A stretch of 42,829 nucleotides of DNA from the NCBI GenBank assembly GCA_020725105.1, contig DYFQ01000025.1:1-42829 (forward strand). Direction: 5' to 3'. Source of the DNA: Symbiobacterium thermophilum. GTDB taxonomy: Bacteria; Bacillota; Sulfobacillia; DYFQ01. The position numbers and the translations under genes were made by a program. Positions 1,983-38,989 of the stretch are shown here, piece by piece. Each line of letters begins with the position of its first letter. Positions within the stretch are counted from its first letter, which is position 1. The notes beneath the pieces are model-generated. The model searched no databases. It was not told the DNA's origin and was given only the letters and a program-made list of their open reading frames with translations.

Positions 1983-2672
1983 ATGGCTGGACCGGCAAGG
2001 CGGGCGGGGCGGGACGCGGGCCGGCCGGCCCTGCCGTGGCTGGCCGGCATCTACGGGCTGGTGGCTCTTGCCCTCACTCCCTGGCTCGTCCGGCTGGCCT
2101 ACCACAACCCGCCCGTCTACCACAGCCTGCCCGACGCCGGGATCCGCCTGTTCCTGCCGCGGAGTCTCGAGGGCTGGAGGGTGGCCGACGTGCCGCTGCC
2201 GGCCGAGACGCCGCTGGACCGCCAGGGGGAGGGGATCCGGGCCGCCGCCTGGGGGGGTCTGGTGGTACTCCAGGTCCGCCGGGTGCCGGCCGGGACCGAA
2301 GCGGGACCCCAGGCCCTGGCGGAGCGGGTGGAAGCCCTCCGGAAGGAGCGGCGGGCCGGCTATTACTACCGCTTCTGGGAGGCGCCGACCTACCGGGTCT
2401 GGAAGGCTGAAGGCTCGTTCCGCCACCTGCCGGGGATCAAGACCATCAAGGACATGGACCTGCGGGTCGAACTTCCCCTGGTGGGGCGGCGAGTGGTCAG
2501 GTACCGGTTCCTGGAGGCCTATGTCGTCGCCCGGGACGACGGGGAAGCGGCCCTTTACCACGCCAGCTTCGCGGTACCCCTCCGGCTTTACGGCTACTTC
2601 GACCTGGACCACCGGTGGATCTTCGCCGGGGTGAAACTGGGGGCGGCGGCCAGGCAGGAGGAAGGACCGTGA
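1983..2672 (+). CDS. hypothetical membrane-anchored protein, 229 aa
   Basis: I do not recognise this family. The N-terminus is Arg-rich and followed by one hydrophobic segment (about residues 20-38, WLAGIYGLVALALTPWLVRL). This suggests a single-pass anchor with the remaining 190 residues outside the membrane. The rest is mixed alpha/beta without repeats or an obvious catalytic motif; YYYRFWEAPTYRVW and YLDH-like aromatic stretches recur. It starts 12 bp after the DppC-type gene and its TGA overlaps the GTG of the next gene, so it is probably co-transcribed with both. A helper role for the transporter or an unrelated envelope function are both possible. Confidence 0.75.
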   Translation: MAGPARRAGRDAGRPALPWLAGIYGLVALALTPWLVRLAYHNPPVYHSLPDAGIRLFLPRSLEGWRVADVPLPAETPLDRQGEGIRAAAWGGLVVLQVRRVPAGTEAGPQALAERVEALRKERRAGYYYRFWEAPTYRVWKAEGSFRHLPGIKTIKDMDLRVELPLVGRRVVRYRFLEAYVVARDDGEAALYHASFAVPLRLYGYFDLDHRWIFAGVKLGAAARQEEGP

Positions 2673-3046
2673 CGTACCTTGTGTTCTACCTCCTGATCCT
2701 GCTCTGGCTGGGGGTGGCCGCCCTGGCCGACCGGTGGCTCAGGCGGCGGATGGCGGGCTTTCCGGACTTTCCGGCCTGGATAGCCCCCGTCGCGGCGTTT
2801 TTCATGGTCGGCGCCGGCCAGGTGGTCAACGGGCAGTTCGCCAAGGGCCTGCTGGGTTTCGCCATCTACTGGGGTGTCCGGATCCAGGCGATTCCCACTC
2901 CGCCACAGCTTCGCGGCCTTCACGTCAAGGAGGTCCTCTTTCCCCTCTGGGTACTCCTGATCGCGGACGCCGCCTGGGTCGCCTTCCGGCGCTGGCGGCT
3001 GGCCAGGCCAAGCAGCCAGCCCCGGTTCACTGGTTCAAGGGCTTGA
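2669..3046 (+). CDS. small multi-pass membrane protein, 125 aa
   Basis: The start chosen is GTG 2669, which overlaps the previous stop as GTGA and has AGGAGGA at 2656-2662. An ATG at 2615 would put 18 unlikely residues in front. The protein has about three hydrophobic segments (TYLVFYLLILLWLGVAALA; the stretch around GAGQVVNGQFAKGLLGF; VLFPLWVLLIADAAWVAF). The G-x-GQ-x-x-NGQ-x-x-KG motif resembles the loop of TM2-like small membrane proteins that have G-x-GQ-x-Y-NGQ. The C-terminus overlaps the 3' end of the opposing HtrA-like gene by 20 bp. The function is unknown. Confidence 0.7.
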   Translation: MTYLVFYLLILLWLGVAALADRWLRRRMAGFPDFPAWIAPVAAFFMVGAGQVVNGQFAKGLLGFAIYWGVRIQAIPTPPQLRGLHVKEVLFPLWVLLIADAAWVAFRRWRLARPSSQPRFTGSRA

Positions 3047-3971
3047 GCCGGGGCATCTCTTCCACCGGCAGCTTCAACTCGACCAGTTCGGCTCCCCGCA
3101 ACACGGTGACGGGCACCGTCTCTCCGGGCCGGTGCGCCGCCAGCACCTTCCGGATCATGCCCACGCCGCCGTTGACCGGCCTGTCCTCGACCCGCACCAC
3201 CAGGTCCAGTTCCCTCACCCCGGCCCTCTCGCCCGGGCCGCCCGGCGCCACCACGCTCACGGCCAGCCCCCGGTCCACCGGCAGCTTGAACAGCTGCACC
3301 AGTTGGGGGTCGATGAACTCCGGGTCACCGCTGAACCCGAGCCAGGGGTGGGTCGCGTAACCGTACTCGATGAGCTGGTGGGCGATGCGGCCGATCACGT
3401 CCACCTGGACGGCCAGCCCCAGGGTCTCCGTCCACGGGATGCCGCACAGGCCGATGAATTCGCCGTTGAGCCAGGCCAGGGCGCCGCCGTTGTTTCCCGG
3501 GTGAATGGCGGCGTCGGTGATGATGAGGCCGTCCACCGGGAGCCGTTCCGGGCGGTAAACGGTGCGGTCGGCCCCGGTGATCACGCCGAGGGTGACGTTG
3601 TGTTCCACCCCGAAGGGGCTGCCGACGCCGATGGCCAGCTGTCCGGGCGCCAGCCGGTCGGCCCGGCCGAAGCCGGCCAGCTCCACCGAGACACGGCGAT
3701 CCAGGCGCAGCAGAAGCAGGAAGTAGAGGGGGTCGGCTCCCACCACCGACGCGCCGTACTTCTGGCCGTCCGCCGTCTGCACCATGACGTCCCTGGGCGT
3801 TCCCTGGCCGCGGACGACCGTGACCACGTGGTAGCCGTCGATCAGCACCCCCGACCCGACGGTGATCCCGTCTTCCCGGGGGTAGCGCATCCGCACGTGC
3901 ACCACGGCCGGGCGGATACGCGAGACGGCTGTGGCAACCTGTTCCGAGAAGGGATCCGGATGAAAGCTCAT
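3027..3971 (-). CDS. HtrA/DegP-like protein with degenerate catalytic triad (pseudoprotease) and PDZ domain
   Basis: The 314-residue protein has a trypsin-like S1C fold (about residues 12-195) and one C-terminal PDZ domain (about 215-310; HPWLGFSG, GLAVSVVAPGGPGERAGVRELDLVVRVEDRPV). It aligns well with DegP, but each triad position is changed. The His of TNNHVV is Arg54 (TVVRGQ). The Asp of DPRSDIAL is Phe84 (DPLYFLLL). The Ser of GNSGG is Asn161 (PGNNGGAL). Peptidase activity is therefore not expected. There is no signal peptide or membrane segment, unlike most HtrA proteins, so it is probably cytoplasmic. The ATG at 3971 matches the domain start; a much longer upstream frame is antisense to purD. 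A role as a PDZ-dependent peptide-binding scaffold or chaperone is inference. Confidence 0.9.
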   Translation of the reverse strand: MSFHPDPFSEQVATAVSRIRPAVVHVRMRYPREDGITVGSGVLIDGYHVVTVVRGQGTPRDVMVQTADGQKYGASVVGADPLYFLLLLRLDRRVSVELAGFGRADRLAPGQLAIGVGSPFGVEHNVTLGVITGADRTVYRPERLPVDGLIITDAAIHPGNNGGALAWLNGEFIGLCGIPWTETLGLAVQVDVIGRIAHQLIEYGYATHPWLGFSGDPEFIDPQLVQLFKLPVDRGLAVSVVAPGGPGERAGVRELDLVVRVEDRPVNGGVGMIRKVLAAHRPGETVPVTVLRGAELVELKLPVEEMPRLKPLNQ

Positions 3972-4086: not shown

Positions 4087-5415
4087 GTGCGCGTCCTGAT
4101 CGTGGGCGGGGGTGGCCGGGAACACGCCCTGGCGTGGGCGCTGGGGCGCGGCCCGGGCGTCCGGACCCTCTTTGCCGTTCCAGGCAACCCGGGCATCGGA
4201 GCACTGGCCCGCTGCCTGGCGGGAGACGCCGGGTCGCCGGCCGAGGTGGTTGCCCTGGCCCGGAAGGAAAGGGTCGACCTGGTGGTCGTGGGGCCGGAAG
4301 CGCCACTGGTGGCCGGGGTGGTTGACGCCCTGGCGGAGGCGGGCATCCGGGCCTTTGGACCCACCAGGGCGGCGGCCGCCATCGAGGGCTCCAAGGCCTT
4401 CGCCAAGGACCTGATGGCCCGGCACGGCATCCCCACCGCCAGGTTCGAGGTGTTCGAGACGCCCGAGCCCGCCCTGCGGTACTTGCGACGGGTTGGCGCC
4501 CCGGTGGTGGTCAAGGCCGACGGCCTGGCCGCCGGCAAGGGTGCCATCGTCTGCCCCGACCTGGCGGCGGCGGAGGCCGCGGTCCAGCAGGTGCTGGTGG
4601 AACGTGCCTTCGGCGCGGCGGGCGACCGGGTGGTGATCGAGGAGTTTCTCGAGGGCCAAGAGGTGTCCGCCTTCTGTGTCACCGACGGCGAGACGGTGGT
4701 CCCGCTGCCGGCGGCCCAGGACCACAAGCGGGTCTTTGATGGCGACCGGGGGCCCAACACGGGGGGCATGGGAGCCTACTCCCCGGCCCCCTGCTACCCG
4801 CCGGAGCTGGCCGCCGCCGTCGAGGATCAGGTACTGGCCAGGACGGTCCGGGCCCTGGCGGCGGAAGGCCGACCTTTCCGCGGCGTGCTCTACGCCGGGC
4901 TGATGCTGACCCGTGAGGGCCCGCGGGTGCTGGAGTTCAACTGCCGGCCGGGGGACCCTGAGGCTCAGGTCATCCTGCCCCGGCTGGCCTCGGACTTTCT
5001 CGAACTGGTCGAGGCCACCCTTGCCGGCCGCCTGGCGGAGGTGGCGGTCAGGTGGCGGCCGGACGCCTGCGTCTGCGTGGTGCTGGCCTCGGGGGGCTAC
5101 CCGGGAAGCTACCGGACCGGCCTGCCCATAAGCGGGGTCGAGGAAGCAAGCCGGCTGCCGGACGTGCTGGTGTTCCACGCCGGGACCGCCTGGCAGGAGC
5201 CGGTCCGGGGCCCGGCGGGCGGCGCGCCGGGAGGCAACACCGGAGCCGGGCGGCTGGTGACGGCCGGCGGCCGGGTGCTGGGCGTGACCGCCCTCGGCCC
5301 CGACCTGTCCGCGGCCGTCGGGCGGGCCTACGCCGCCGTCGGGCGGATCAGCTTCGACGGCATGCACTACCGGAGGGACGTCGCCCACCGGGCCCTCCAG
5401 GGGCCGCGGCCGTAG
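4087..5415 (+). CDS. purD: phosphoribosylamine--glycine ligase (GARS)
   Basis: This is the ATP-grasp enzyme joining 5-phosphoribosylamine and glycine to GAR, step 2 of de novo purine synthesis, in the cytoplasm. The chosen GTG start (GGAGGT six bases upstream) gives 442 residues beginning VRVLIVGGGGREHALAWAL, the standard GARS_N opening. The N domain is followed by the ATP-grasp core (AFGPTRAAAAIEGSKAFAKDLM; VVVKADGLAAGKGA; DHKRVFDGDRGPNTGGMGAYSP; LEFNCRPGDPEAQ) and the GARS_C domain (VLASGGYPGSY). Residues around 375-395 are a Gly/Pro-rich loop a little longer than usual. It stands alone here: no other pur gene is adjacent, which is unusual since purD normally closes the purHD pair. It ends 10 bp from the convergent amidohydrolase gene. 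Confidence 0.95.
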   Translation: MRVLIVGGGGREHALAWALGRGPGVRTLFAVPGNPGIGALARCLAGDAGSPAEVVALARKERVDLVVVGPEAPLVAGVVDALAEAGIRAFGPTRAAAAIEGSKAFAKDLMARHGIPTARFEVFETPEPALRYLRRVGAPVVVKADGLAAGKGAIVCPDLAAAEAAVQQVLVERAFGAAGDRVVIEEFLEGQEVSAFCVTDGETVVPLPAAQDHKRVFDGDRGPNTGGMGAYSPAPCYPPELAAAVEDQVLARTVRALAAEGRPFRGVLYAGLMLTREGPRVLEFNCRPGDPEAQVILPRLASDFLELVEATLAGRLAEVAVRWRPDACVCVVLASGGYPGSYRTGLPISGVEEASRLPDVLVFHAGTAWQEPVRGPAGGAPGGNTGAGRLVTAGGRVLGVTALGPDLSAAVGRAYAAVGRISFDGMHYRRDVAHRALQGPRP

Positions 5416-8410: not shown

Positions 8411-9197
8411 AGAGCGGTTCGCCGGCGGTGAGCGAGCCGTGAACGGCGAGCCCGTCGTCCGGGTCAGGAACCTGCACAAGTGGTTCGGCCGCCTCCACGT
8501 GCTGCGGGGGGTGGACCTGGACGTGGCCGAGCGGGAGGTCGTGGTCATCATCGGCCGTTCCGGCTCGGGGAAGAGCACCTTCCTCCGCTGCATCAACTTT
8601 CTCGAGGAGCCGTCGGCCGGCGAGGTCGCCGTGGCCGGAATCAGCATCCCCGCCGGTCACCGGGGGCGCGAACTCAACCGGGACCTTCTGAAGCTCCGGA
8701 TGAGGACGGGCATGGTCTTCCAGGAGTTCAACCTCTTCCCCCACATGACCGTGCTGGAGAACGTCAGCGAGGGGCCCGTCACGGTGAAGCGGATCCCGCG
8801 GGCCGAGGCCGTCCGGATGGGCGAGCACTTCCTGGCGAAGGTAGGGCTCCTTGACAAGCGGGACGAGTACCCCATCCGGCTGTCCAGCGGCCAGAAACAG
8901 CGGGTGGCCATCGCCCGGGCGCTCTGCATGGAGCCCAGGGTGATGCTGTTCGACGAGCCCACCAGCGCCCTCGACCCGGAACTCACCGGCGAGGTGCTGG
9001 ACGTCATGCGGCAGCTGGCCCGGGACGGCATGACCATGCTGGTCGTCACCCACGAGATGGGCTTCGCCAGGGACGTGGCCGACCGGGTCATCTTCATGGA
9101 AGACGGGATCTTCGTGGAGCAGGGGCCGCCGGACGTCATCTTCCGGCGGCCCCAGGATCCCCGCACCCAGCGCTTTCTCCAGCGGGTGCTCGACTAG
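8400..9197 (+). CDS. polar amino acid ABC transporter ATP-binding protein
   Basis: This is the 265-residue ATPase of the importer. Walker A is GRSGSGKST (52-60), the Q-loop is [17 protein letters not shown], Walker B is [14 protein letters not shown], and the H-loop is VVTHEM. The ABC signature reads [15 protein letters not shown]: the second position of LSGGQ is Ser rather than Gly, a tolerated but less common change. The ATG at 8400 lies within the end of the permease gene. The stop at 9195-9197 overlaps the stop of the convergent dehydrogenase gene in a shared CTAG. Confidence 0.94.
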
Positions 9198-10360
9198 GCC
9201 TCCAGGGGGCGCTCCGCCACCCGGATCCCGCGCCGGTCCAGTTCCAGCCTGAACTCGGCGTACAGCTGGGCGTCGGCAAAGGCGTGCTCCAGGGGGACGA
9301 CCCCCCGGTCTCCGATCCGGCCCCGCAACAGCATCCCCACCAGAATTGAGCAGGTGTACGCCGTGGTTCGGGCCATGGACGTCGCCCCGGTGGCCTCGTC
9401 GTAGAAGTCAAGCATCTCGAACTCCCAGCCGGCCGGCTTACCCGCCCGCTCGCCCCGGACGACGACGCGGAGGACCGAGACGTCGGCCTCGTCACCCCGC
9501 TGCAGGAGCGGGGTCAGGAGCGCCGCCGTCACCCGCCGGGGGACGACTTCCTGGCCGTCCACCCGCACCGGCTCCGTGGCGAAAAACCCGCATTCCCGCA
9601 AGAGCAGCACCTGGTCCCGGTGACCCGGGTAGCGGACCGTCTTCTCGGCCAGCCGGCGAAAGCCCATGGCCAGGCCGGTTCGGGCCAGGGTGCCCAGGCC
9701 GTAAGTGTAAAAGGCCTCGCAGCGGCCAACCGGTGGGGAGAAGGTGATCTCCTCCAGCCCGTCCAGGGCCTCCACCGCCACCAGTTGCCCGTCCCTGATG
9801 ATGAGGGCGGGGGCCACGTACTCGTCGATCACCGTCTCCAGGGAGAACACCAGCCGGTAGTTGAGGGGCGGCTCGGGGCGTAGCGGCAGCCCGCCGACGT
9901 ACACCACACCTTCCACCGCCCGGTCGAGCCGGGCCGCTCCCTGGCCCACCAGCGCGTTGGTCAGGCCGGGTGCCAGCCCGCAGCCCGGCAGCAGGGTTAC
10001 GCCGGCCGCCCGGGCGGCCGGGTGGTGGTCAAAGATGTCGAAGCCTTCGGCCGACCCGGTCAGGTCGGCCAGGGAAACGCCCGCCTCGATGGCGGCCTCG
10101 GTGACCTGGCGGACCGCCGCCACCGGGTAGGCGCCGGCGACCACGTCGGCCCGGCGCATGGTTTCCACCAGTGCCCCGCGGTCCCACAGGTCCAGCACCA
10201 GCCCCTGGCAGCGGTCGCGACCGAACCGGCTGACCACGCCCTGCACCCGCCCGGGGTCGATGTCGGTCACCACCACCCGGTCGGCAATACCGTATCTGAA
10301 CAGGTCATCGACGATGGCCGGCCCCATCAGGCCCGCTCCCAGCACCAGCACGGTTGCCAC
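9194..10360 (-). CDS. lysine 6-dehydrogenase-like protein (saccharopine dehydrogenase family), copy 1
   Basis: This NAD(P)-dependent oxidoreductase has 388 residues. The Rossmann motif is at the start ([10 protein letters not shown], GxGxxG at 7-12), and the catalytic and C-terminal region resembles Geobacillus L-lysine 6-dehydrogenase ([36 protein letters not shown]). That enzyme deaminates the epsilon carbon of lysine to the semialdehyde, which cyclises to piperideine-6-carboxylate. The GTG start at 10360 has GGAGAGGTG upstream. It starts only 4 bp after the MttB-type gene and is the last gene of the minus-strand operon. The family is firm, lysine itself is not proven: another omega-amino acid may be the substrate. 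Confidence 0.88.
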
Positions 10361-10364
10361 GGGA

Positions 10365-11822
10365 TCACCTCTCCACAAAAGGAAGTGCCTGGCAGCCATG
10401 GGCCGCCATGATCCGGCGCATGGCCGCCGCCAGCGCCCCGGCCCGGTCGGCGGGGGGCGCCGGCGCCTGGTGGCCGGCCAGCAAGACCTCCACCTGCTTC
10501 CGGGCGCGGGCCCACGCGTCCGGGGACCCGCTTTGCGCCCAGGCCTGGCGTTCCAGCCGGTCGATGACGGCACCGGGTAGGTGGGACTCCTCCCGGAACC
10601 AGCGCCGGGTGTGTCGCTGGCCCAGGTAGTCGGCGCCCGGCCCGAGCTCGACGATGAGTTCCGTGGCCAGGGTCTCGCCGGAGACCGAGATGCCGCGGAG
10701 CAGCCGCTGGACCATGCCGGCCAGTTCGGCGTCGAGGACCAGCTTCTCGCGGCTGTGGGTATTCTCGAAGTCCAGCGTGCCCAGGCCCGAGATGACGTTG
10801 ATCCGGGCCAGCGCGGCCAGGACGCCGCTCAGGGCCGTCTCCAGGCCGGCCTGGGCGTCCACCTCCTTGGCGTCGCTCAGGGCCGCGTAGGTGTGGGTGG
10901 GCAGGCGATAGTGCTTCCCCAGCTGGGCCGAGGCCACGCCGATCATGGTGGCCTCCACGGCGCTCAGGGGCGTGGTACCGTACCGCATGTCGAACTGGAC
11001 CGGGGCCCCACCCCAGACCACCCGGGCGCCGGGCCGGACCGTTTGCGCCAGCACCACGCCGCTCAGGGTCTCGGCGGCGTGCAGCGCCACGCTGCCGGCC
11101 AGGGTGGCGGGGGACGCGGCGCCGGGCATGGGCATGGAGACAAACTCGATGGGCAGGTTGGCCGCCGCCCCGTCCATGACGTTGGCGGCGCTGATGGCGG
11201 TCCACTTGAGCGGCGGGGACGGGCAGACGTCAAAGACGGCGCAGGGGGCGTCCCCGGCCTGGTCGTCGCTGACCGCGTCCAGGAGGGTCTTCATGTCCCA
11301 CAGGCCGGGCTCGCTGAAGGCGCCGGTGACGACGGGTTTGGCCGAGTGGGAAAGCACCAGGAACAGCCGGTAGCTGTCGGCGAGTTCCTTGGGGGCTTCC
11401 GCGGCCACCACGGCGGTGGACTGCAGGCTCACCTGGGGCAGGGCGTCGGCCACCCTTACCAGGTCCACCAGGTCACGCGCCGTGGACGGGCGGGCCGTGC
11501 CGTCGCTGTCCAGCACGCGCACGGCGCAAGAGCCCGGGGCGAAGTGGACCTGGTCGCCGCCCACCTGAAGCGCCGCCCGCCCGTCCCGGTCGTAGAGGGT
11601 GAACGAGTCAGGGCAGCTCAGGAGGGCCCGCTCCACCAGGGACCGGGGGAACCTGACCCGCCGGGCGGCGAAGTCGACCCGGGCGCCCTTCTCGGCCAGG
11701 TGCTCCAGGGCCCGGGGGTAGTCGATGTACACGCCACTCTCGGCCAGCACCCGCAGGGCCGCTTCGTGGACGGAGGCTACCTCCCCGTCGGAGAGGACGC
11801 GGAGCGTGCCAGGCCGGCTCAC
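10365..11822 (-). CDS. MttB-family corrinoid-dependent methyltransferase, non-pyrrolysine
   Basis: This 485-residue TIM-barrel protein of the trimethylamine methyltransferase superfamily (COG5598) begins TLRVLSDGEVASVHEAALRVL, the usual N-terminus. Later motifs include HSAKPVVTGAFSEPG, VWGGAPVQFDMRYG, and YRLPTHTYAALSDAKEVDAQAGLE. The frame contains no internal amber codon, so it is not a pyrrolysine enzyme. Characterised non-Pyl members (MtgB, MtpB, MtcB, MtyB) take a methyl group from glycine betaine, proline betaine, carnitine or gamma-butyrobetaine and pass it to a corrinoid protein. The GTG at 11822 overlaps the corrinoid gene's TGA (GTGA) and has GGGAGGTGG upstream, so the two are coupled. 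The methyl donor here is unknown. Confidence 0.93.
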   Translation of the reverse strand: MSRPGTLRVLSDGEVASVHEAALRVLAESGVYIDYPRALEHLAEKGARVDFAARRVRFPRSLVERALLSCPDSFTLYDRDGRAALQVGGDQVHFAPGSCAVRVLDSDGTARPSTARDLVDLVRVADALPQVSLQSTAVVAAEAPKELADSYRLFLVLSHSAKPVVTGAFSEPGLWDMKTLLDAVSDDQAGDAPCAVFDVCPSPPLKWTAISAANVMDGAAANLPIEFVSMPMPGAASPATLAGSVALHAAETLSGVVLAQTVRPGARVVWGGAPVQFDMRYGTTPLSAVEATMIGVASAQLGKHYRLPTHTYAALSDAKEVDAQAGLETALSGVLAALARINVISGLGTLDFENTHSREKLVLDAELAGMVQRLLRGISVSGETLATELIVELGPGADYLGQRHTRRWFREESHLPGAVIDRLERQAWAQSGSPDAWARARKQVEVLLAGHQAPAPPADRAGALAAAMRRIMAAHGCQALPFVER

Positions 11823-12496
11823 GGGGCGCCACCTCCCGGCCCGGGAGCCGCGCCCTCGACCAGCCGGAGGGCCAGCTTGACCGCCTCGGGGGCATTGGGC
11901 GCGTAGCCGTCGGCCCCGATCTCCGCCGCCCACTGGCCGGTGACGGGAGCGCCGCCCACCAACACCCGGACCGCCTGCCGCAGCCCGGCCGCCTCGAGCG
12001 CCTGGATGGCCGCCTTCTGCTGGAGCATGGTGGTGGTGAGCAGGGCGCTCAGCCCGACCAGGCTGGGTTCGAGTTCGCGTACGGCTTCGACCAGCCGGTC
12101 CGCCGGCACGTCCTTGCCCAGGTCGTGCACCTCGAAGCCGGCCGTGCGGAGCATGGCCCCGACGATGTTCTTGCCCAGGTCATGCACGTCGCCTTTCACC
12201 GTCGCCATCACCACCCGGTGGCTCGGCTGGCGCCGGCCGCCGGCCAGGAGCGCCGGCTCCACCAGCTCGTTGCACCGCTTGAAGACGTCGGCGGCGGCGA
12301 CCACCTCGGGCAGGAAGACCTCGCCCCTGTTCCAGCGCTCTCCCAGTTCGAACATGGCCTGGGACATGCCCGAGTCCAGGATGGTCCGGGGGTCGACCCC
12401 GGCTTCCAGGAGCCGCCCGGTGGCCGCGAGCGCTCGTTCGTCGTCGGCCTCCAGGATCGCGTCGCGCAGTTCCTTAAGCTCTTCTTGTGCCTGCAC
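11819..12496 (-). CDS. MttC/MtbC-type corrinoid protein
   Basis: This methyl carrier has 225 residues, with an N-terminal helical cap (B12-binding_2, about 1-85) and a C-terminal Rossmann-like cobalamin domain (about 90-215). The lower-axial His motif is DVHDLGKNIVG (His105). SALLTTTM and VGGAPVT are typical of the family. The protein shuttles methyl groups between an MttB-type methyltransferase (next gene) and a second methyltransferase acting on tetrahydrofolate or CoM, which is not in the window; nor is a RamA-like activator. Start: GTG 12496 lies 8 bases after GGAGG. An ATG at 12502 is too close to it, and GTGs at 12517/12520 overlap the previous stop but lack a site. Confidence 0.93.
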   Translation of the reverse strand: MQAQEELKELRDAILEADDERALAATGRLLEAGVDPRTILDSGMSQAMFELGERWNRGEVFLPEVVAAADVFKRCNELVEPALLAGGRRQPSHRVVMATVKGDVHDLGKNIVGAMLRTAGFEVHDLGKDVPADRLVEAVRELEPSLVGLSALLTTTMLQQKAAIQALEAAGLRQAVRVLVGGAPVTGQWAAEIGADGYAPNAPEAVKLALRLVEGAAPGPGGGAP

Positions 12497-12513
12497 CGGC
12501 ATCGCCTCCCGGC

Positions 12514-13692
12514 TCACCACTCACGCTCAACCGTCAATCGTTCGCGGACCCTGAACCCCCGGCGCGCCATCTCCCGGGCGAAATACGGGCCTGGAAGCGC
12601 CAGTTCCACCGGCCTGGCCCCCCGCGGCGTGACACCGGTGGCCATGGCGATGGCCATGATGGAGGCGTGCCAGCCCGTCGTCCGTTCCATGGCCGTGAAC
12701 CCGGTGGCCTCGTCGTGGTAGTCCACGAGCTCCAGGACCACCTCGGCCGGCCGTCCGTCCTTCTCGCCCAGGCAGCGTACCCTGAGCGCCACCACGTCGC
12801 GGTCGTCCGGCTCCGGTCGCAGGCGCGGCTCCAACAGGGCGTGGAGCACCTGGCGCGGCGAGACGGAAACCTCGCCCACCCTGACCGGCTCCTCGTCCAG
12901 CAGGCCGGCGTCGAGGAAGGCCCTGATCCGCTCGTAGTGCCCTTTGTAGCGGAGAGTCTTGTTCTGAAAGGTCTTGAGCTTGCCCCGGAAGGTGAAGGGG
13001 GCCGTCGAGGTGCCGCCGGCGGTGGTGAAGGCCTCCAGCGTCCCCAGGGGCGGGAATTCCACCTCCTCGTACTCGGTGAAGGTGGGCACCTCCACCACTT
13101 CCCCGTCCCGCAGGAAGATGGCCCGGCCGTGGTACTCGTTGGTGAGCCCGGCGATGTGGAAGGTGAGGACGTAGTTCCAGGGCGGGCGGGGATGCTGCAC
13201 CAGGCCGCCGTCCCACAGGTAGACCTCTTCGGGCCGGTCTAGGAGGCCCATGGCGTAAACCGCCATGGACGTGCCCATCCCCGGCACCTGGCCGCAGTCG
13301 GGCACCAGGCTCACCCCGGCGCGGGCCGCCTCACCGTCCAGGCGCAACTGCTCCAGCACCAGGTCGGTGTTGCCCCCCAGGTCGCACAGGGAGGTGCGCG
13401 CCTCGATGGCGACCCGGGCGATCTCCAGGTTGTGGTAGTAGGGCACCGCGCTCACGCAGGCGTCGGTACCCTTGAGAAAGGCCAGGAGCCCTTCCCGGTC
13501 GGTCACGTCGACCGCGGCGCCCCGGGCCACCTCCCGCCCGAGAAGCTCGTTGACCCGCCCGGCTGCTCCCTCGGCCACCTCGGGGTTCACGTCTCCGATG
13601 AGGACCGACCCGGCGTCGCCGAACCGTCCCAGGTCGTAGGCGGCCGCCCGGCCCTGGCGCCCGCCGCCAAGCACCGCATAACGGTAGGCCAC
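12514..13692 (-). CDS. lysine 6-dehydrogenase-like protein (saccharopine dehydrogenase family), copy 2
   Basis: A 392-residue relative of the protein at 9194-10360, with the same architecture. The Rossmann N-terminus is YAVLGGGRQGRAAAYDLG, and later come DLGGNTDLV, PDCGQVPGMGTSMAVYAMG, PPLGTLEAFTTAGGTST and GFTAMERTTGWHASI. It differs from copy 1 in the nucleotide loop (GGGRQG against GAGLMG) and in the barrel-facing residues, so the two copies probably have different substrates or form a heteromer. GTG 13692 follows GGGGAGGTG at good spacing. It precedes the corrinoid protein gene with essentially no gap. LysDH-like, but the substrate is unproven. Confidence 0.87.
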   Translation of the reverse strand: MAYRYAVLGGGRQGRAAAYDLGRFGDAGSVLIGDVNPEVAEGAAGRVNELLGREVARGAAVDVTDREGLLAFLKGTDACVSAVPYYHNLEIARVAIEARTSLCDLGGNTDLVLEQLRLDGEAARAGVSLVPDCGQVPGMGTSMAVYAMGLLDRPEEVYLWDGGLVQHPRPPWNYVLTFHIAGLTNEYHGRAIFLRDGEVVEVPTFTEYEEVEFPPLGTLEAFTTAGGTSTAPFTFRGKLKTFQNKTLRYKGHYERIRAFLDAGLLDEEPVRVGEVSVSPRQVLHALLEPRLRPEPDDRDVVALRVRCLGEKDGRPAEVVLELVDYHDEATGFTAMERTTGWHASIMAIAMATGVTPRGARPVELALPGPYFAREMARRGFRVRERLTVEREW

Positions 13693-36331: not shown

Positions 36332-38989
36332 TTAGGCGGTCCCGCCGCTCGGCCGGCCGGTCCGGTCCCGGTCGTCCTCCGGCGGCGGGGCCGGGCGGTC
36401 CCGGTCGTCCTCGGGCGGCGGGCTCGGGGGTTCCTCGGGCGGCTCGGGCGGCTCCGGCGGCCCGGGGGGTTCGCCCGGCCCCTCCTTCCGGCGCCGCGCC
36501 CCGCGATCCTCGTCGTCCTCGGCCCGAGCGCGGGGCGGTCTCGCGTACTGGCGCATCCGCTGGGCCAGCTCCCGCAGGCGCCGGTCCACCAGCTCGTTCA
36601 CGGTTCCCCGGGGGTAGCGGCCCCGGGCGTCCGGCTCGCCGGCGGGGACTCCGGTGAGCAAGGCGATCCCCTCGTCGATGGTCCGGATGGCCCACACGTG
36701 GAACCGGCCCTCGGTGATGGCCCGGCACACCTCGTCCCGCAGCATCAGGTTGGGCACGTTCTGGTGGGGGACGATGACCCCCTGACGCCCGGTGAGGCCC
36801 TTGACCTTGCAGACGTAGTAGAAGCCCTCGACCTTCTGGTTGATGCCCCCCACTGGCTGGATCTCGCCCTTCTGGTTCACCGAGCCGGTGACGGCGATGC
36901 CCTGGTCAATGGGCAGCCCCGACAGCTCCGAGAGGAGAGCGAAGAACTCGGCGACCGAGGCGCTGTCGCCGTCAACCTCGTCGTATAGCTGTTCGAAGGT
37001 GAGGGTGGCCGAAAGGGAGAGCGGCTTGTCCTGGGCGTACCTGCCCCCCAGGAGCGCGCCCAGGATCATCACGCCCTTGGAGTGGATGCGTCCCGAGAGG
37101 TCGGTCTCCCGCTCGATGTTGACCACGCCCCGCGCGCCCACGAAGGAACGGGCGGTGATCCGGTTGGGCTTGCCGAAGGCGTAGTCGCCCAGGTTGAGCA
37201 CGGCCAGGCCGTTGACCTGGCCCAGCGTTGCGCCTTCCACGTCGACGAGCAGGCTCCCCCGGGCGATGAGTTCCCGGATCTTCTCCTCGATCCGGTTGGA
37301 GCGGTAGATCTTCTCCTCCAGCGCCCGGGAGACGTGCTGGGCCGTGACCAGCGACCTGCCGTCGTGCCGGGCCCACTCGGCCGCCTCGTAGATGATCTCG
37401 GTGACCTCGTTGAACCTGGCCGAGAGCTTGGTCTGGTCCTCGGCCAGCCTGGAACTGTAGTCGACCACCCTGGCGACTGCCGACCGGTCGAAGTGGGGCA
37501 GGTTCCGCTGGTGGCAGATGGAGGCCACCACCGAGGCGTACTGGTTCAGCGTATCGGGGGTGCGGTCCATCTCGGTGTAGAAGTCGGCCCGGACCTTGAA
37601 CAGCTTACGGAAGTCCTCGTCAAACGTATAGAGCACGTAGTAGATCAGGGGATTGCCGACGAGCACCACCTTCACCCGGGAGGGAATGGGCTCCGGCCGG
37701 AAGCTGGCGGTGGGGATCAGCCCGTACTGCTCGTGGATGTTCTCGGTCCGGATCTGGCCGCTCTTCAAGGTCCGTTTCAGGGCGTCCCAGGCGAACGGGC
37801 TGGTCAGGACGTCCCTGGCCTGGAGCACGAGGTACCCGCCGTTGGCCCGGTGGAGCGCCCCCGGCTTCACCATGGTGAAGTCGGTGTGCAGCGTGCCGAG
37901 CTCGCCCCGGTACTCGACCTTGCCCACCAGGTTGTAGTAGGTGGGGTTGGGCTCTACGACCACCGGCGCCCCCCGGGTGTCGGAGTGGTCCACCAGCAGG
38001 TTCACCCGGTAGCGGACGAAGGCGTCACGGCGGCCCCGCATCTGGCGGAGGAGCACCGCCGGAAGCTGGGCCTCGGGCTCGCCGTCGTCCCGGAAGTCGT
38101 CCAGGTGCTCCACCACGTCCTGCTGCACCTGGTCCAGGTACTGGCGGACCCCTTCCTGGTCCCGGTACTTGTCCTTCAGCCGGCTCACCAGGTAGCCGGC
38201 GCAGTAGATGCCGACCTCTCCCTCGAGCGTCTTGAGCCGGTCCCGGGCCTCTTTTTCAAGCTGGCGCACCCGCCGCATGCCCTCCTGGACCTGGGCCTGG
38301 AGGTCCCGGCCCCGCTGGGCGATGGCTTCCCGCGTCTCTTCGGGGAGCTGGGTGAACTCCTCCTGGCTCAGGGGCTCGCCCTGGGCGTTCAGGGGGACGG
38401 TCATGATCCCGGTTGGCGTTCGCGACACGGCGAACTGCCGCTGGCGGGCGTCGGCCTCCAGTTGCTCCCAGACCGCGGTCACCGACTGCTCGACGCCCTG
38501 CACCAGCTCGCGCTTGCGCTTCTCGTATTCCTCGCTGGCAAAGGCCTTGCGGATCTCCTCTTTCAGGTCCTCTATCAGTTCGTCCATGTCCCGCCGGAAC
38601 TCGGCCCCCCGCCCCGAGGGCAGGCGCAGGGCCGTGGGCTGGTCCGGCTGGTTGAAGTTGTACACGTAGCACCAGTCGTCGGGGGGGATGCCCCGGGCTG
38701 CCACCTCCCGGACCTTGGCCTGGGTATAGGTGGTCTTGCCCGTGCCCACCGGCCCGGAGATGTAGATGTTGTAGCCCGGCTGCTGCATGGTGAGGCCGAA
38801 GTCGAGGGCCCGCACCGCCCGCTCCTGGCCGATGATGGCGTCCAGGGGCGAAAGCTCCGCCGTGGTCTCGAAGGGAAAGACGGCGGGGTTGCAGATGGCG
38901 CATAGCTGCTGGGCACCGATCCGGAGGCTCTCCCGGAGCTTTTGCACCTGGTCTCCCGGCTGGGATCGCTTGTTTTTCAAGGCACTCAT
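36332..38989 (-). CDS. Lon-like ATP-dependent protease (COG1067, AAA_32 plus S16 domain)
   Basis: The 885-residue protein starts with a CxxC-bearing segment (Cys30, Cys33). It then has the AAA domain with Walker A GPVGTGKTT (Lys85), a coiled-coil-rich insert (about 190-330, Glu/Arg/Gln-rich) and the C-terminal Lon protease domain. The Ser-Lys dyad is intact: Ser676 (DGDSASVAEF) and Lys719 (GGINQKVEGF), the 43-residue spacing seen in E. coli Lon. The last 50 residues are a Pro/Glu/Asp tail with PPPEDDRDR twice, encoded by a 17-bp repeat. ATG 38989 lies immediately after AGAGGG. A cytoplasmic quality-control protease, without the usual Lon N domain. Confidence 0.93.
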   Translation of the reverse strand: MSALKNKRSQPGDQVQKLRESLRIGAQQLCAICNPAVFPFETTAELSPLDAIIGQERAVRALDFGLTMQQPGYNIYISGPVGTGKTTYTQAKVREVAARGIPPDDWCYVYNFNQPDQPTALRLPSGRGAEFRRDMDELIEDLKEEIRKAFASEEYEKRKRELVQGVEQSVTAVWEQLEADARQRQFAVSRTPTGIMTVPLNAQGEPLSQEEFTQLPEETREAIAQRGRDLQAQVQEGMRRVRQLEKEARDRLKTLEGEVGIYCAGYLVSRLKDKYRDQEGVRQYLDQVQQDVVEHLDDFRDDGEPEAQLPAVLLRQMRGRRDAFVRYRVNLLVDHSDTRGAPVVVEPNPTYYNLVGKVEYRGELGTLHTDFTMVKPGALHRANGGYLVLQARDVLTSPFAWDALKRTLKSGQIRTENIHEQYGLIPTASFRPEPIPSRVKVVLVGNPLIYYVLYTFDEDFRKLFKVRADFYTEMDRTPDTLNQYASVVASICHQRNLPHFDRSAVARVVDYSSRLAEDQTKLSARFNEVTEIIYEAAEWARHDGRSLVTAQHVSRALEEKIYRSNRIEEKIRELIARGSLLVDVEGATLGQVNGLAVLNLGDYAFGKPNRITARSFVGARGVVNIERETDLSGRIHSKGVMILGALLGGRYAQDKPLSLSATLTFEQLYDEVDGDSASVAEFFALLSELSGLPIDQGIAVTGSVNQKGEIQPVGGINQKVEGFYYVCKVKGLTGRQGVIVPHQNVPNLMLRDEVCRAITEGRFHVWAIRTIDEGIALLTGVPAGEPDARGRYPRGTVNELVDRRLRELAQRMRQYARPPRARAEDDEDRGARRRKEGPGEPPGPPEPPEPPEEPPSPPPEDDRDRPAPPPEDDRDRTGRPSGGTA
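36363..36412 (-). repeat. 17-bp direct repeat encoding the Pro/Asp tail of the Lon-like protein
   Basis: CGGTCCCGGTCGTCCTC occurs at 36363-36379 and 36396-36412, a 33-bp (11-codon) offset, so slippage would keep the frame. It encodes the repeated EDDRDR element of the tail. Confidence 0.7.

Follow-up and report, generated by a model that had tools for sequence, protein, structure and literature searches.

An HtrA homologue devoid of its catalytic triad belongs to a conserved, probably ancient protein clade in a class of Firmicutes

The window, that is, the whole stretch of 42,829 nucleotides analyzed here, carries on its reverse strand a gene for an HtrA homologue, called pseudo-HtrA in the following, in which the residues of the catalytic triad are replaced. 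This gene, its domains and key codons, and its nearest neighbors are located as follows.

3027..3971, reverse strand: pseudo-HtrA gene, 314 aa, with a trypsin-like domain and one PDZ domain, without signal peptide; one of the 28 members of the pseudo clade
3447..3857, reverse strand: Trypsin_2 (S1C) domain, residues 39–175 (Pfam)
3066..3344, reverse strand: PDZ domain, about residues 210–302; in the pseudo clade the more constrained half of the protein
3810..3812, reverse strand: codon CGC of Arg54 at the His position; Arg occurs here only
3720..3722, reverse strand: codon TTC of Phe84 at the Asp position
3489..3491, reverse strand: codon AAC of Asn161 at the Ser position; Asn occurs here only
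3549..3557, reverse strand: Tyr139-Arg140-Pro141, in 28/28 pseudo members, a motif absent from the intact HtrAs compared; expected site of the L3 loop
3501..3503, reverse strand: His157, in 28/28 pseudo members; Asn in 42/42 intact HtrAs compared
2669..3046, forward strand: ORF of 125 aa, convergent; its 3' end overlaps the pseudo-HtrA gene by 20 bp
4087..5415, forward strand: purD, the divergent neighbor

The ATG start of the gene agrees with the starts of its orthologues. Most clade members begin with MD(P/A)(W/F)S..I, thereby placing an aromatic residue at the N-terminus, and in the alignment the start of the window protein sits at the same motif. Both Pfam matches exceed their curated cut-offs and give the order of a trypsin-like domain followed by a PDZ domain: Trypsin_2 scores 50.8 bits (cut-off 27.6) over residues 39–175, and PDZ_2 scores 38.2 bits (cut-off 27) over residues 233–302. 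With the NCBIfam HtrA/Do model TIGR02037, the window protein reaches 153 bits, which is under the cut-off of 416.2. However, an intact short paralogue encoded in the same genome (L047) likewise stays below this cut-off with 274 bits, and therefore the TIGR02037 score does not separate a dead from an intact short HtrA.

An export signal or a membrane anchor is usual in bacterial HtrAs, although not strictly required. The first-pass annotation had described the window protein as lacking a signal peptide, and this holds: within its first approximately 78 residues the highest 19-residue hydrophobic mean is 1.38, and no such segment precedes the fold. Furthermore, none of the 28 clade members has a hydrophobic segment ahead of the fold, which suggests that the protein is most likely located in the cytoplasm.

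The arrangement of the neighboring genes was also read correctly at the outset, with two small ORFs convergent with pseudo-HtrA and purD divergent from it. These two ORFs, of 229 and 125 aa, overlap each other (1983–3046, forward strand) and lie downstream of an oligopeptide-type ABC permease pair; neither has a Pfam or NCBIfam match. Elsewhere in the window, a gene of the trimethylamine methyltransferase (MttB) family lies between two saccharopine dehydrogenase-like genes (9194–13692, reverse strand). In addition, positions 36332–38947 of the reverse strand encode a LonC/LonB-like protein of 871 aa (284 bits to Thermus TTC1975, a LonC), which has a proline/aspartate-rich C-terminal tail and a catalytic Ser motif, DGDSAS, that looks intact.

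Between families, the neighbors of pseudo-HtrA vary. The upstream neighbor is divergent in most genomes, the downstream gene is usually not tightly linked, and pseudo-HtrA usually stands alone. purD is found nearby in families f1 and f16 only, PanD diverges from pseudo-HtrA in f38/f44, and a Fur-type regulator (named by eye) lies near it in f23 and f48, in one family together with a P-type ATPase. Since the context differs between families, the neighbors give no functional clue, and an operon-based function, including a link to purD, was dropped. Upstream of the pseudo-HtrA genes, no CIRCE or CtsR-type operators stood out, the scores over the set being no better than those of shuffles; a role as a heat-induced chaperone therefore gets no support. 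A link to sporulation through the presence of spo0A was uninformative, as 143 of the 154 genomes in the class possess this gene. In three genomes of the Symbiobacterium-like genus in family f22 (loci L039, L043 and L093), pseudo-HtrA has a second spo0A copy at a distance of about 4 kb.

The fold of the protein had been presumed intact, and structure prediction bears this out. The AlphaFold2 model (66 rows) has a pLDDT of 94.7 and a pTM of 0.90, and in this model the HtrA fold of pseudo-HtrA is complete. When the model was compared by Foldseek and VIA-align, the best matches were DegQ, DegP, DegS and other HtrAs with Z of about 30 over nearly the full length, the identity to DegQ, DegP and DegS being 26–30%. 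No MamO chain is among the listed structure matches, which carries no weight for or against. The HtrA-type platform is probably trimeric.

Pairwise, HMM and MAFFT multi-way alignments all place Arg54, Phe84 and Asn161 where HtrAs have His, Asp and Ser. In a profile alignment to the solved DegQ/DegP chains the same columns face His, Asp and Ser/Ala, so that the initial assignment of the three residues is confirmed. Among the 28 full-length members, position 54 is Gln in 21, Pro in 5, Arg in 1 and Gly in 1; position 84 is Phe in 24, Tyr in 2, Gly in 1 and His in 1; and position 161 is Thr in 14, Val in 6, Ala, Met and Ile in 2 each, Asn in 1 and Ser in 1. His and Asp are thus gone in all 28 and Ser in 27, no member keeping more than one residue of the triad; H-D-S is found in 42/42 other HtrAs of the same tree. 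The question raised at first sight, whether the Arg/Phe/Asn combination is conserved in related genomes, has a divided answer. The exact triplet occurs in the window genome alone, Arg54 and Asn161 being private to it. The loss of the triad is conserved: the His position is usually taken by Gln, the Asp position by Phe, and the Ser position by Thr, Val or others. As the triad is absent throughout the clade, its loss is a clade property. With no general base, no Asp and usually no nucleophile, peptide cleavage by the S1 mechanism would not be expected, and judging from these lost residues the window protein is not expected to be proteolytic. The sole member that keeps the Ser (L097 in G086, with GNSGG) has Gly in place of His and Phe in place of Asp; this Ser is either a relic of the order of loss or a reversal.

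The changes extend beyond the triad. Around the active site, Q151, N157, T177, F186 and P189, which the intact HtrAs compared conserve completely or almost completely, are also altered, N157 being replaced by His, T177 by Gly and F186 by Leu. The surrounding S1C motifs are accordingly less well preserved than had been claimed.

A search of 60 relatives gave 12 further genomes with orthologues at 46–55% identity. A profile search of the 154 genomes of the class then yielded 30 matches, spread over 29 genomes that represent 13 families; these include a second, equal-scoring copy in G087 and a match in G140 that is split over two contigs. In G087, pseudo-HtrA and its 20-kb surroundings appear twice (L094 and L107, on contigs C7 and C47) with identical gene order and equally high scores, which is probably assembly redundancy. 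Within the class, a score gap sets the clade apart, full members reaching at least 388 bits and everything else, intact paralogues included, at most 281 bits. The clade takes in Thermaerobacter marianensis, and another of its genomes (G021) we take to be, probably, that of Symbiobacterium thermophilum. Being one of the more divergent members, the window protein is a poor query, and a scan of the genome contigs with it alone returned one distant match only. Outside the class, no clade match was seen among 398 genomes sampled over the phylum; the same is true for 72 genomes of the neighboring class of G408, in which the best matches (in G408 and G585) are intact.

The origin of the clade was addressed with a maximum-likelihood tree of 70 sequences from which the triad columns were left out. 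The pseudo clade is monophyletic with support of 100/100, and its sister (99/92) is formed by those intact HtrAs of the class that are short and lack a signal peptide. Together, these two clades are set apart from the longer HtrAs (100/99), and L084, an intact homologue from the neighboring class, falls outside the two. This topology is most simply explained if an ancestor within the class duplicated the gene once, the triad was lost a single time, and transmission was mostly vertical. In the window genome the sister short HtrA is encoded at L047:8168-9157 (G000:C64), has an intact triad and lacks a signal peptide. Many genomes of the class carry signal-less intact HtrAs of this type, as do two from the neighboring class (L084 and L131). 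A third trypsin-like protein of the window genome (L048:2543-3541, G000:C38) has weak Pfam matches to the N- and C-terminal domains of plant NARROW LEAF 1, the NAL1_N match scoring 24.5 bits, under the cut-off.

Selection on the gene was estimated by the Nei-Gojobori method from congeners within families. The dN/dS of pseudo-HtrA is 0.08–0.25 compared with 0.06–0.33 for the intact paralogue, and in the same genera the pseudo gene has similar or lower values. Selection therefore constrains the dead copy about as strongly as the living one. Of the two findings named in advance as overturning a selected function, a relaxed dN/dS near 1 and orthologues with an intact triad, neither is seen. No full-length member has an interrupted reading frame. 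These results, together with the predicted fold and an intact triad in 0 of the 28 full-length orthologues, support the original proposal of a selected, non-proteolytic HtrA.

The constraint has also shifted within the protein. At a matched overall identity of 0.4–0.6, conservation in the pseudo clade is higher by approximately 0.10 for the PDZ domain than for the trypsin-like domain, whereas in intact HtrAs the PDZ identity minus the protease-domain identity is −0.10 for the short and −0.21 for the long proteins. The PDZ excess of the pseudo clade is clear when distant pairs are compared, but for close pairs it is small or absent. At the same time, seven clade-specific residues are invariant in 28/28 pseudo members, namely Tyr139, Arg140, Pro141, Val146, His157, Arg195 and Phe213, while G177, L186 and Phe84 are near-invariant. 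The invariant polar residues H157, R140 and D147 lie near the loops of the former active site along the sequence. In DegS and DegP, loop L3 couples the PDZ domain to the active site, and by comparison with the DegP motifs Tyr139-Arg140-Pro141 would fall within this loop. Since new residues are strictly conserved in the protease domain, this domain is not merely a passive handle for PDZ.

Several explanations can be weighed against these data. Ordinary decay of an active HtrA, or a sequencing error, might be suspected from the window triplet, as no other member has it; the triad is, however, absent in all orthologues from 13 families, the frames are open and dN/dS is low, which refutes this explanation for the clade and leaves it hardly any probability. 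That a new catalytic set replaced the S1 triad to yield a different enzyme is suggested by the invariant H157, R140 and D147, but no nucleophile is conserved, as position 161 varies among T, V, A, M, I, N and S and Phe predominates at position 84; we regard such an enzyme as very improbable. The former active site could also have become a site for a small ligand or a metal, with His157 and Arg140 as candidates, both being invariant in the clade and, like Tyr139 and Pro141, not in intact HtrAs. The metal-binding pseudoprotease MamO (PMC4794232) and the Fur-type regulator and P-type ATPase mentioned above speak for a sensor of this kind. However, the metal site of MamO uses other positions, the residue ahead of the Asp position being Tyr here, only a single invariant His has been newly gained in the clade, and metal-related neighbors are limited to two families, which makes a sensor improbable.

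The main rival is a regulatory subunit that joins an active HtrA of its own cell in mixed trimers, or otherwise activates or inhibits it, in which case the sister short intact HtrA would be the natural partner. The two are sister clades, both without signal peptides, and the short intact paralogue occurs in 19 of the 29 pseudo-carrying genomes, that of the window included (L047). Furthermore, MamO activates MamE-dependent proteolysis, and pairs of inactive and active proteins arose three times in magnetotactic bacteria (PMC4794232). The other 10 pseudo-carrying genomes, among them G041, G054 and G016 at 99–100% completeness, lack the short intact paralogue, so that partnership with it is not obligatory in general; conversely, family f37 and two genomes of f38 have the intact HtrA with no pseudo one detected. 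In addition, the pseudo and intact genes are not linked, and the long HtrAs look membrane- or export-type and would thus reside in another compartment. We consider a regulatory subunit rather unlikely, albeit the strongest of these alternatives.

The PDZ domain of HtrAs binds C-terminal peptides, and in the pseudo clade the strongest constraint falls on this very domain. For this reason we favor, with a probability of roughly 55%, an ancient, selected cytoplasmic pseudoprotease that serves as a PDZ-led peptide-binding scaffold, adaptor or holdase on an HtrA platform. The first suggestion of a PDZ scaffold, a chaperone or a regulator is thereby narrowed but not decided: the constraint on PDZ argues for PDZ-led binding, and the 10 genomes without the closest active paralogue argue against an obligatory regulator of that paralogue.

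According to the favored scaffold reading, the starting point would be the duplication of a short signal-less HtrA in an ancestor belonging to this class of Firmicutes. One of the two copies would then have lost His, Asp and usually Ser, with an aromatic residue filling the Asp position, fixed new residues in the regions of loops L3 and L1, and been passed on mostly vertically. Its PDZ domain may still bind peptides or exposed protein C-termini on the HtrA-type, probably trimeric, platform, so that a client would be held or presented but not cut; client binding is the most likely activity of pseudo-HtrA. A bolder and clearly less probable extension, which we put forward tentatively, is that the former active site has been rebuilt as a new conserved site, with YRP in L3, His157 in L1 and Phe as a plug where Asp used to be, and that this site is coupled to the strongly constrained PDZ domain. 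The allosteric switch of HtrA might then control binding or partner activity instead of cleavage in a class-wide, ancient cytoplasmic family.

Annotation by fold or profile would label these genes as serine peptidases although cutting is not expected. A dead HtrA that has long been kept over 13 families, mostly in genomes that also encode a living sister, amounts to a natural experiment that separates binding from cutting; the clade proteins come from thermophiles and should purify easily.

In comparison with DegQ, DegP and DegS, pseudo-HtrA shares the fold and the domain order, but those are active, exported proteases, with two PDZ domains in DegP and DegQ. The protease-dead DegP S210A, which retains chaperone activity in E. 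coli, resembles it as an HtrA without proteolysis and illustrates that a dead HtrA can serve as a chaperone (PMC5023192); that mutation is engineered and the protein periplasmic, whereas the loss in pseudo-HtrA is natural and ancient. The closest relatives, L047 and its orthologues, have the same domain layout and length and form the sister clade, but they possess His-Asp-Ser, keep the usual residues of the active-site region and have a protease domain that is more conserved than PDZ.

HtrA pseudoproteases have rarely been described in bacteria. In the literature searched, which covered few subscription journals, the only ones found were MamO and the inactive MamEs of magnetotactic bacteria, and no paper joining Symbiobacterium, Thermaerobacter and HtrA was found. 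MamO is a pseudoprotease of the Deg branch that belongs to proteobacterial magnetosomes and has a di-histidine site for metal binding; in strain AMB-1 it keeps His and Asp, has Thr in place of Ser and carries a transporter domain (PMC4794232). The likeness of MamO and the inactive MamEs to pseudo-HtrA lies in the Trypsin-2/Deg branch, the degenerate triad, the retention of HtrA duplicates and the non-catalytic role (PMC4794232). The marks of a MamO-type pseudoprotease, a triad degenerate across orthologues together with purifying selection, are both found in the present clade, and 25 of the 28 members match the NCBIfam MamO model at E ≤ 1e-5, the window protein scoring 30.3 bits, far under the cut-off of 800. 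In contrast to MamO, the present clade has lost His and Asp throughout, lacks the di-histidine, one His of which would immediately precede the Asp position (Tyr83 in 28/28 members), consists of short soluble proteins of trypsin-like and PDZ domains, and belongs to Firmicutes with no magnetosome link. HtrA-derived pseudoproteases are thus already known from magnetotactic bacteria, and the present clade is an independent case with a more thorough loss, in another lineage and probably another compartment.
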